Shown: piece after piece, positions 11,623 to 24,842 of the stretch
How the letters are laid out: each line of letters starts with the position of its first letter
Numbering within the stretch: position 1 is the first letter of the stretch
Source: an uncultured Eubacteriaceae bacterium
Lineage (GTDB): Bacteria; Bacillota; Clostridia; Lachnospirales; CAG-274
Direction of reading: 5' to 3'
Assembly (NCBI GenBank): GCA_946497035.1
Contig: CAMMIW010000007.1
Coordinates: forward strand, 1 to 64,000
DNA length: 64,000 nucleotides
Translations under genes and position numbers: made by a program
The notes under the pieces: generated by a model
Seen by the model: only the letters and a program-made list of their open reading frames with translations
Databases searched by the model: none
What the model was told of the DNA's origin: nothing

Positions 11623-12003
11623 ATGTATAGACAAAATCCATACACTAAGATAAAGGAAAATGCTATAAATACAGCTACACCAGAAGATTTAACATTAATG
11701 TTATATGATGGTGCTTTAAAATTTGCCAATAGAGCTGCTATAGCTATAGAAAAGAAAAATTATACAGATGCTAACATGTATATCCAAAAAACAAAGGATA
11801 TAATAAGAGAGTTTCAGATTACTTTAAATATGGACTATGAAATATCAACACAGCTATATGAGGCATATGAATATATGCACTATAGATTAACACAGGCTAA
11901 TATTAAAAAAGACTTGGAAATATTAAACGAAGTGATAGATCATATAAGATTATTTAGAGATACTTGGAAAGAGGCTATGAAAATAGCAAGAGCTTCTAGA
12001 TAA
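11623..12003 (+). CDS. fliS: flagellin export chaperone
   Basis: 126 residues, the normal FliS length. The N-terminal NPYTKIKENAINTATPEDLTLMLYDGALKFANRA segment and the all-helical remainder (ISTQLYEAYEYMHYRLTQANIKKDLEIL) are typical. FliS binds the C-terminus of flagellin in the cytosol and keeps it from polymerising before export. It directly precedes the two flagellin genes; a terminator follows. Confidence 0.95.
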   Translation: MYRQNPYTKIKENAINTATPEDLTLMLYDGALKFANRAAIAIEKKNYTDANMYIQKTKDIIREFQITLNMDYEISTQLYEAYEYMHYRLTQANIKKDLEILNEVIDHIRLFRDTWKEAMKIARASR

Positions 12004-12015
12004 TATAAAAAATTT

Positions 12016-12047
12016 AAAGGGCTAAAGATTTTATTTAGCCCTTTTTT
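12016..12047 (+). terminator. intrinsic terminator after fliS
   Basis: Perfect 11-bp stem AAAGGGCTAAA / TTTAGCCCTTT (12016-12026 with 12034-12044), 7-nt loop, T tract to 12047. It separates the fliD operon from the flagellin genes. Confidence 0.92.
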
Positions 12048-12145: not shown

Positions 12146-12171
12146 TAAGTATATAAAAAAAACACCGATAT
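12146..12171 (+). promoter_or_regulatory. sigma-28 (SigD)-type promoter of flagellin gene 1
   Basis: TAAG at 12146-12149, 14 bases, then ACCGATAT at 12164-12171, close to TAAA-N15-GCCGATAA. An inverted repeat GGTGTT / AACACC (12141-12146, 12161-12166) brackets the spacer. The implied untranslated leader is about 170 nt. Confidence 0.7.
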
Positions 12172-12234: not shown

Positions 12235-12274
12235 CCTCCCGTATTTTCCCTCGAACAAATTTTCGGGGGGGGGG
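12235..12274 (+). other. poly-G tract and pairing C-rich segments in the flagellin 1 leader
   Basis: Ten consecutive G (12265-12274) in an otherwise AT-rich leader. CCCTCGAA (12248-12255) can pair with TTCGGGGG at the start of the G run. CCTCC at 12235-12239 is complementary to the flagellin Shine-Dalgarno GGAGG at 12333-12337. The bases are seen directly; any switching role is inferred. Confidence 0.5.
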
Positions 12275-12300: not shown

Positions 12301-12338
12301 AAGTAACAAAGGAATGTTACTTTTTAAATCAAGGAGGA
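12301..12338 (+). promoter_or_regulatory. CsrA-type GGA-loop hairpin plus Shine-Dalgarno, flagellin 1 leader
   Basis: Stem AAGTAAC / GTTACTT (12301-12307 with 12316-12322) closes the 8-nt loop AAAGGAAT with a GGA. The Shine-Dalgarno AAGGAGG (12331-12337) supplies a second GGA. This matches the two-site CsrA arrangement known from Bacillus hag mRNA. The same hairpin, with a compensatory base-pair change, precedes flagellin 2. Confidence 0.65.
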
Positions 12339-12346
12339 AAAATATT

Positions 12347-13909
12347 ATGGCAATGAATACAGTTATTAATACAAATATGAGAGCTCTTACAGCTCACAGA
12401 AACCTATCAACAGTAGGTGCTAGACAAAATAAAGCTAACCAAAGATTATCTTCTGGTAAAAAAATTAACTCAGCAGCAGATGATGCAGCAGGTTTAGCAA
12501 TCTCTGAAAAAATGAAAGCTCAAATCAAAGGTTTAGATATGGCTTCTAAAAACTCTGAAGATGCTATTAGCTTAATCCAAACAGCTGAAGGTTCTTTAAC
12601 AGAAGTAAACAATATGTTAACAAGAGTTAGAGAGCTTACTGTTCAAGCAGCTAACGATACTAACCAACAAGAAGATAGAGTTAAAATAGCTGAAGAGGTA
12701 GCAAGCCTTTTAACAGAAATTGATTCTATTTCAAGCAGAACAGAGTTTAATGAGAAAAAGCTTAATGATGGTTCTTTCCAAGATGGTTTCTTCCAAATTG
12801 GTGCTAATGCAGGCCAAAAATTAGATTTAGGTATCGGTAATATGTCTGTATTTGGTATAGGAATGGATGAAATTATGGATACTTTTGGACTTGAAAAAAA
12901 AGTTGATTTAGATCCTAAATCTGATGTTAAGGGTGTTGTTGTTCCAGATAGTGTAGCTAAAACTACTTCAAGTTTTACGGTAGCTGCATTAACAGGTCAA
13001 GGTACTAGCGATTTAACAACAGCTACAATTACCATGAAAATTGAGGTAAAAGGTCAAAATCAAGAATTAAAGTTAAATCTTGATTTAAGTGCAGTTAAAG
13101 CTAACGCAAGTGAAACAACATTGGCAGCAGAAATAGCTAATCAATTAAATAAGAATGAAGATTTCAGCAAGTATTTTAAAGCAACTTCTGCAGCTGGTAA
13201 AGTTAGTTTTGAAGCATTAGATGTTGGTGGAGAAGTGACGGTTGGTCAAGGTACTGGGGCAGCTGGTGATATTGCAATTACATATGGTAAAGATAGTGCT
13301 GCTAATAATGTTGCCGGTGGTAATTTAACTTATGCAGCTGCTAATTCTACAAAAGGAAGTTATGGTACAATTGATATTGATAAACTACAAGTTGGGGAAA
13401 AATTTACTATAGCAGGAAAGACATTCACTAAAGTAGAGGCAGGAAATCCAGATAAAGTTCCTGGAGGATTTAATACTAGAGATGAACTGACAGCAATTTT
13501 AAAGGCAGATGGTGTTTCTGCATCTAATGGAGCGGGTGCTGGTGAAATTATATTAAACTATGCAGAAGATAGAAGTTCATTATCAGGTACATACTCTGTA
13601 AGCTCTAAAGATGTAAGTGATAAAGGTAAAGAATTTTCAAATTTATTAGATAGTATTGATGAATCTTTAAAAACAGTAACTACACAAAGATCTAAGCTTG
13701 GTGCTAACCAAAACAGATTAGAATACACTATAAACAACTTAAACATCACTAGTGAAAACTTATCAGCAGCTAAATCTCGTATAGAAGATACAGATATGGC
13801 TAAAGAGATGATGAACTTAACATCAGCTAACGTATTACAACAAGCAGCTACATCTATGCTTGCTCAAGCTAACCAAGCTCCACAAAGTATAACTCAATTA
13901 TTAGGTTAA
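12347..13909 (+). CDS. fliC: flagellin 1
   Basis: 520 residues from the ATG at 12347 (AAGGAGG 9 bases upstream); an in-frame ATG at 12314 lies in the leader hairpin and is not a real start. The N-terminal D0/D1 helices (MAMNTVINTNMRALTAHRNL, LSSGKKINSAADDAAGLAIS) and C-terminal D1/D0 helices (NITSENLSAAKSRIEDTDMA, ending APQSITQLLG) are canonical. The middle (about 185-425) is a large surface domain rich in Ala, Gly, Thr. It is exported through the flagellar channel and polymerises into the filament. Nearly identical to flagellin 2 at both ends, divergent in the middle. Confidence 0.96.
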   Translation: MAMNTVINTNMRALTAHRNLSTVGARQNKANQRLSSGKKINSAADDAAGLAISEKMKAQIKGLDMASKNSEDAISLIQTAEGSLTEVNNMLTRVRELTVQAANDTNQQEDRVKIAEEVASLLTEIDSISSRTEFNEKKLNDGSFQDGFFQIGANAGQKLDLGIGNMSVFGIGMDEIMDTFGLEKKVDLDPKSDVKGVVVPDSVAKTTSSFTVAALTGQGTSDLTTATITMKIEVKGQNQELKLNLDLSAVKANASETTLAAEIANQLNKNEDFSKYFKATSAAGKVSFEALDVGGEVTVGQGTGAAGDIAITYGKDSAANNVAGGNLTYAAANSTKGSYGTIDIDKLQVGEKFTIAGKTFTKVEAGNPDKVPGGFNTRDELTAILKADGVSASNGAGAGEIILNYAEDRSSLSGTYSVSSKDVSDKGKEFSNLLDSIDESLKTVTTQRSKLGANQNRLEYTINNLNITSENLSAAKSRIEDTDMAKEMMNLTSANVLQQAATSMLAQANQAPQSITQLLG

Positions 13910-14024
13910 TAAATAGTTCTTTAGTTTTATAATTGAGTTAATGTAGCTTAGAAGATAATAGAGGTTTGCTTTGTTGGTTTATTTGTTTTGTATTGTATGT
14001 ATAATAACCTTTTGATTAAATAAT

Positions 14025-14054
14025 TTGACTATTATTATATATTATCATTTTAAT
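14025..14054 (+). promoter_or_regulatory. candidate sigma-A-type promoter of flagellin gene 2
   Basis: TTGACT at 14025-14030, 18 bases, TTTAAT at 14049-14054. I see no CCGATA-type -10 here, unlike the first flagellin gene. The -10 is overlapped by an inverted repeat, ATCATTTTAATT / AATTAAATGAT (14044-14055, 14060-14070), which could be an operator or part of the leader fold. A weaker alternative -10 (TATAAT) is at 14000-14005. Confidence 0.4.
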
Positions 14055-14070
14055 TAAGCAATTAAATGAT

Positions 14071-14107
14071 AGCAACAAAGGAATGTTGCTTTTTAAATCA
14101 AGGAGGA
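14071..14107 (+). promoter_or_regulatory. CsrA-type GGA-loop hairpin plus Shine-Dalgarno, flagellin 2 leader
   Basis: Stem AGCAAC / GTTGCT (14071-14076 with 14085-14090) around the identical loop AAAGGAAT, then TTTTTAAATCAAGGAGG. Relative to flagellin 1 one stem pair changed from T-A to C-G on both sides, so the structure is conserved, not just the sequence. Confidence 0.65.
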
Positions 14108-15730: not shown

Positions 15731-15758
15731 AAAAGAACTGGATAACCAGTTCTTTTTT
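15731..15758 (+). terminator. intrinsic terminator after flagellin 2
   Basis: Perfect stem AAAAGAACTGG / CCAGTTCTTTT with loop ATAA, followed by a T run. Confidence 0.95.
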
Positions 15759-24716: not shown

Positions 24717-24737
24717 TTTATAGTAATAAATATGTGT

Positions 24738-24830
24738 CTTATCAAGAGAGGTGGAGGGATAAGGGCCCTGTGATACCCAGCAACCAGCTTTAGCATTGGT
24801 GCTAAATCCCCCGTTTTTACGGAAGATGAG
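24738..24830 (+). ncRNA. SAM-I (S-box) riboswitch
   Basis: P1 arms CTTATC (24738-24743) and GATGAG (24825-24830) enclose all the conserved S-box blocks: AAGAGAGGTGGAGGGA, the core CCCTGTGATACCCAGCAACC, a P3 hairpin with GGTGCTAAATCC, and the P4 element ending CGGAAGATGAG. SAM binding stabilises P1 and lets the downstream terminator form, so it switches metK off when SAM is plentiful. Confidence 0.95.
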
Positions 24831-24842
24831 GATTTTTTGTAT

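Follow-up and report, generated by a model that had tools for sequence, protein, structure and literature searches.

We predict that two hairpins, one just upstream of the Shine-Dalgarno (SD) sequence of each of two tandem flagellin genes, serve CsrA as docking sites on the major flagellin leaders, and that both genes are under control of the Hag-FliW-CsrA type. Leader comparisons and analogy with Bacillus subtilis allow us to hold this reading with high confidence. The genes lie in a 64-kb stretch of DNA from an uncultured member of the Clostridia, which is referred to here as the window. The regulation is very probably flagellin-dosage control as known from B. subtilis, that is, real but not new in kind, and it would add a new member to an ordinary and well documented circuit. 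The result extends that circuit to a family of uncultured Clostridia, and it supplies covariation evidence as well as a model with which further leaders can be searched for.

In the proposed mechanism, one face of a CsrA dimer would bind the A-N-GGA-N loop of the hairpin and the other face would reach the GGA of the SD sequence 22 nt downstream, so that the ribosome would be blocked. Export of flagellin would free FliW, which would then bind CsrA and lift the block; flagellin building up inside the cell would hold FliW, and translation would stop. The B. subtilis system is our basis for inferring that CsrA binds and represses and that FliW lifts the repression.

The two flagellin leaders

The features of the region are listed in Table 1.

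Table 1. Flagellin region of the window, with positions counted from its first nucleotide
Feature	Position	Strand	Details
fliS, flagellin chaperone gene	11623-12003	+	Pfam FliS, 122.6 bits
Terminator-like hairpin after fliS	12016-12044	+	Consensus scan
SigD-type promoter motif, flagellin 1	12146-12171	+	Pattern match; same motif ahead of flagellins of relatives
CCTCC, predicted partner of the flagellin 1 SD (12333-12337)	12235-12239	+	Leader fold, prediction
G10 homopolymer, leader 1	12265-12274	+	No other G/C run of 9 or more in the 2.0-Mb assembly
Hairpin 1, predicted CsrA site 1	12301-12322	+	AAGTAACA-AAGGAA-TGTTACTT; 8-bp stem; loop AAGGAA 12309-12314
SD AAGGAGG, flagellin 1, predicted CsrA site 2	12331-12337	+	
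Flagellin 1, 520 aa	12347-13909	+	Pfam Flagellin_N and Flagellin_C; ATG 12347
Hairpin 2, predicted CsrA site 1	14071-14090	+	AGCAACA-AAGGAA-TGTTGCT; 7-bp stem; loop AAGGAA 14078-14083
SD AAGGAGG, flagellin 2, predicted CsrA site 2	14100-14106	+	
Flagellin 2, 532 aa	14116-15714	+	Pfam Flagellin_N and Flagellin_C; ATG 14116
Terminator-like hairpin after flagellin 2	15731-15756	+	Consensus scan

Both hairpins carry an AAGGAA hexaloop of the form A-N-GGA-N, and the distance from the loop GGA to the SD GGA is 22 nt in both genes. An earlier reading made from the sequence alone (the sequence-only reading) had described an identical loop upstream of each SD sequence. The identity stands, but the 8-nt loop AAAGGAAT that it drew is better described as the AAGGAA hexaloop with an A-U closing pair. 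The same reading noted that the stems differ by one compensatory pair, and this is seen in the sequence as T12304-A12319 in hairpin 1 and C14073-G14088 in hairpin 2. The two-site CsrA mode that it proposed agrees with the two GGA motifs 22 nt apart, a spacing that fits the geometry of B. subtilis hag and Escherichia coli glgC (PMC7652899). Each hairpin also contains an in-frame ATG (12314 and 14083), which is unlikely to be a start codon; a proper SD sequence serves the ATGs at 12347 and 14116, as in the relatives.

The folding energies of the 55-nt leaders are -6.7 kcal/mol for leader 1 and -8.2 kcal/mol for leader 2 (z -1.8 and -1.2); these are only mildly unusual, and folding energy by itself is weak evidence for the hairpins. 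An Rfam scan of the window returned nothing at the flagellin leaders, its sole match being a SAM riboswitch at 24736-24832 (RF00162, 70.7 bits). When the 75-nt leaders 1 and 2 were shuffled with their dinucleotides preserved, an A-N-GGA-N hexaloop with a stem of the observed length arose in 10 and 24 of 20,000 shuffles, respectively (0.05-0.12%). Both strands of the window together hold three such hexaloop hairpins whose stem is 6 bp or longer, and two of the three are the flagellin hairpins.

The two hairpins are not independent because the flagellin paralogues hardly differ over a stretch that starts at the 5' foot of the hairpin and includes roughly the first 500 nt; among the first 522 coding nucleotides, 16 differ. 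The common loop thus owes something to a recent duplication or gene conversion. Over the 48 positions that run from the hairpin to the ATG, the leaders differ at three, two of which form the compensated pair; simple counting, in which complementarity is not yet required, gives a chance of about 2% (7 x 46 / 17296) that two of three random differences fall on partners, which is suggestive but not decisive. Because this near identity runs on past the leader into the coding sequence, duplication or gene conversion might also be the only cause of the likeness, the T-A/C-G difference having arisen by chance. This explanation is extremely improbable as the full one, being contradicted by stem covariation across 25 leaders from distant species (described below), which argues for selection independently of the paralogue pair. 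Duplication can hold alongside selection on the hairpin and, since the two leaders are not independent, the weight for selection comes from the relatives.

The sequence-only reading spoke of a separate mRNA for each flagellin gene. A SigD-type motif is indeed present ahead of gene 1, but a separate mRNA for gene 2 is uncertain. Between the two genes no SigD-type promoter was found for gene 2, and no terminator was flagged there except hairpin 2 itself; therefore, both genes may share a single mRNA, with a CsrA module ahead of each. The flag on hairpin 2, and the TTTTT that follows both hairpins, raise the question of whether the hairpins are intrinsic terminators or attenuators of transcription. 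We reject this reading as very unlikely: the stems are A-T rich instead of G+C rich, and the relatives do not keep the T run but do keep the A-N-GGA loop and its distance to the SD sequence. A fixed loop is not required for a terminator.

Conservation of the hairpin in relatives

Flagellin leaders from the Clostridia and Bacilli were found via the flagellin N-terminus and aligned on the loop, which gave 25 distinct sequences. The A, G, G and A of A-N-GGA are invariant in all 25, although the leaders were picked for an A-N-GGA-N hairpin, which makes the loop invariance and some of the pairing a consequence of that choice. Over the eight stem pairs, 86% of the cells hold standard pairs compared to 47.8% after shuffling, a level reached in none of 500 shuffles. 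Stem covariation is 0.95 versus 0.20 in the shuffled alignments (again 0 of 500), and partners slid out of register score 0.06-0.19. In the other Clostridia leaders the loop GGA lies 22-29 nt from the SD GGA, with the exception of the genus relative G005. The leader of this relative (L125, 1400-1501) has a weaker, displaced GGA hairpin, and an extra hairpin is inserted between it and the SD sequence.

The caveat about chosen leaders is answered by the breadth of the set and by two controls. First, in a scan of the leaders of flagellin matches, in which some start codons were misplaced and the Bacilli were missed, nearly all Clostridia leaders carry the hairpin and it is absent from all of the gammaproteobacterial and Alicyclobacillus leaders scanned. 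Second, within the family the hairpin precedes flagellins of the MAxNTVINTN type, and none is present before the MILNTN and M(I/V)INxN classes of the same genomes. The loop GGA, on whose conservation in relatives the sequence-only reading had made its case depend, is thus kept as A-N-GGA in the 25 leaders along with strong stem covariation, and the selection on structure that it had proposed from a single pair is now backed by leaders of distant species. These comparisons indicate that the upstream hairpin is under selection in this family of uncultured Clostridia.

One might still suppose that the hairpins merely shield or expose the mRNA near the SD sequence, for stability or structural insulation, and that CsrA plays no part. 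A stem next to an SD sequence can influence mRNA decay, and the stem sequences do vary while the pairing is kept. This supposition leaves unexplained the invariant A-N-GGA loop, the steady spacing of 22-29 nt and the csrA genes that lie beside such leaders in relatives, and it is most unlikely to be correct. Control by CsrA is the reading that we prefer.

csrA, fliW and possible flagellin switching

The sequence-only reading, which saw neither csrA nor fliW in the window, proposed a search of the rest of the genome, and both are present there. The genome has a single csrA (G000:C5:107702-107857; PF02599, 80 bits), and fliW adjoins it on the same strand (PF02623, 137 bits), the pair being downstream of flgL. 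The CsrA protein keeps L4, R6 and R44, which we take to be RNA-binding residues, and R44 is also invariant among the csrA paralogues aligned (see below). The best solved relative of both CsrA and FliW is the same entry, 5dmb, in which chains of both proteins are present. The 73-aa CsrA aligns with the CsrA chain through residue 68; in its C-terminal tail, where the FliW-binding extension of CsrA would lie, the similarity is only weak.

Of 48 genomes of the family, 15 have csrA and exactly these also have flagellin, a co-occurrence that partly just mirrors motility. A leader model (R1) matches 13 of these 15 genomes at E<1e-5, although the training set of R1 included sequences from several of these genomes, so that its matches there are partly by construction. 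The two others are G005, where the match (E 0.0035) is hardly better than the best one in a genome lacking csrA (0.0077), and G008, which has csrA and flagellin but no clear hairpin and an R1 match at chance level. A search of the window's own genome with R1 found only the two flagellin leaders, the next best match having an E value of 1.3. A third exact copy of AAAGGAATGTT in this genome (C6:19149, minus strand) falls where a transporter permease-like gene begins, and R1 gave no match to it. No hairpin is present ahead of the other flagellin-like genes of the genome, on contigs C9 and C6; the one at C9:76323-76784 (L008) is a third flagellin-like gene of another class.

Gene order provides an independent tie between CsrA and the hairpin leaders because, in relatives, csrA paralogues are located directly before hairpin-bearing flagellin genes. 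For example, in one relative (G014) a csrA paralogue of 80-88 aa, confirmed as CsrA by Pfam, stands ahead of each of four flagellin genes with the GGA hairpin. Each of these four cassettes (L202-L205) is adjoined by a tyrosine recombinase gene, two of these genes being confirmed by Pfam and the others identified by similarity, and has a SigD-type promoter motif flanked by inverted repeats 33-34 nt long. In L203 the promoter is directed at csrA and flagellin, and in L202, L204 and L205 it faces away from them; the orientation of the recombinase gene changes with that of the promoter. Similar loci are present in other families of the order: L244 has a recombinase gene and 23-bp repeats; L241, L243 and L249 have repeats and the promoter motif, and no recombinase was found nearby; and L248 has a recombinase gene, with no long repeat found.

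A promoter between inverted repeats, ahead of a csrA paralogue and a flagellin gene, suggests flagellin switching in these relatives, and this is a testable idea. Inversion of the promoter in living cells and silencing of the other flagellins would be the steps involved. Such switching would resemble the Hin/FljBA system of Salmonella, with CsrA in the place of FljA. A search of one literature library for csrA-linked invertible flagellin cassettes found no paper, and no csrA paralogue was found in viral contigs. Two further arrangements were noticed. Open frames with two tandem CsrA-like domains are present beside flagellin genes in L229 (minus strand, frame from 1462 of the reverse complement) and L216 (1252-1804), and a csrA on a Bacillus halotolerans plasmid (L239, 262-492) overlaps the start of hag.

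Leader 1 of the window has a feature of its own, the G10 tract. In the predicted fold of this leader (z -3.7, 0 of 200 shuffles), the CCTCC upstream of the tract pairs with the SD sequence. When the length of the tract was varied in silico, the predicted mean SD exposure was 0 for G5-G10, 0.31 for G11 and 0.65-0.71 for G12-G14, which suggests that the tract is a candidate slipped-strand switch of SD exposure. In a near genus relative (L011, 2848-2876), which also has two flagellins in tandem, a G12 tract (2858-2869) lies inside the SigD-type promoter spacer of the first gene; the spacer of the second gene is shorter and has no G tract.

Taken more broadly, the hairpin and CsrA could form an order-wide module for flagellin choice in addition to dosage. 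The relatives would use cassettes of an invertible SigD-type promoter and a csrA paralogue, the expressed one silencing the others, and the genome of the window, with one csrA and no cassette seen, would use the G10 tract as its switch. We regard this proposal as speculative and rather doubtful. The leader with the G10 tract and possible anti-SD sequence, and the apparently invertible csrA-flagellin cassettes, may be more novel than the CsrA hairpins.

Comparison with known systems

In B. subtilis, Hag, FliW and CsrA form a partner switch in which FliW is the CsrA antagonist (PMC6529632, PMC7652899). As with B. subtilis hag, the flagellin leaders described here have two CsrA sites (here predicted), one of them over the SD sequence, fliW is beside csrA and fliS is close by. 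A SigD-type promoter motif was found for gene 1 and none for gene 2. The differences are that the signal is present on two tandem flagellin genes and that leader 1 adds a G10 tract and a possible anti-SD sequence.

Two CsrA sites are likewise predicted in the fliC leader of Clostridioides difficile: ACAAGGATGT belongs to the upstream site, the second site lies over the SD sequence, and FliW antagonises CsrA there as well (PMC8523840, PMC11898703). The stem sequences differ from those reported here, and in C. difficile only the site that overlaps the SD sequence is needed for repression, the upstream site being dispensable (PMC11898703). Since the SD-overlapping site alone sufficed in that species, the exact contribution of our hairpins can only be inferred. 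Selection acts on the upstream hairpin in these Clostridia, although the corresponding site is dispensable in C. difficile.

Finally, E. coli glgC has a GGA hairpin just upstream of the SD sequence, as do the two flagellin genes, and this hairpin holds a CsrA dimer in place while the dimer reaches across to the SD sequence; anchoring at a hairpin and bridging to the SD sequence is the mode described for both B. subtilis hag and glgC (PMC7652899). The target gene is a different one, and in the glgC system CsrA is antagonised by small RNAs and not by FliW.
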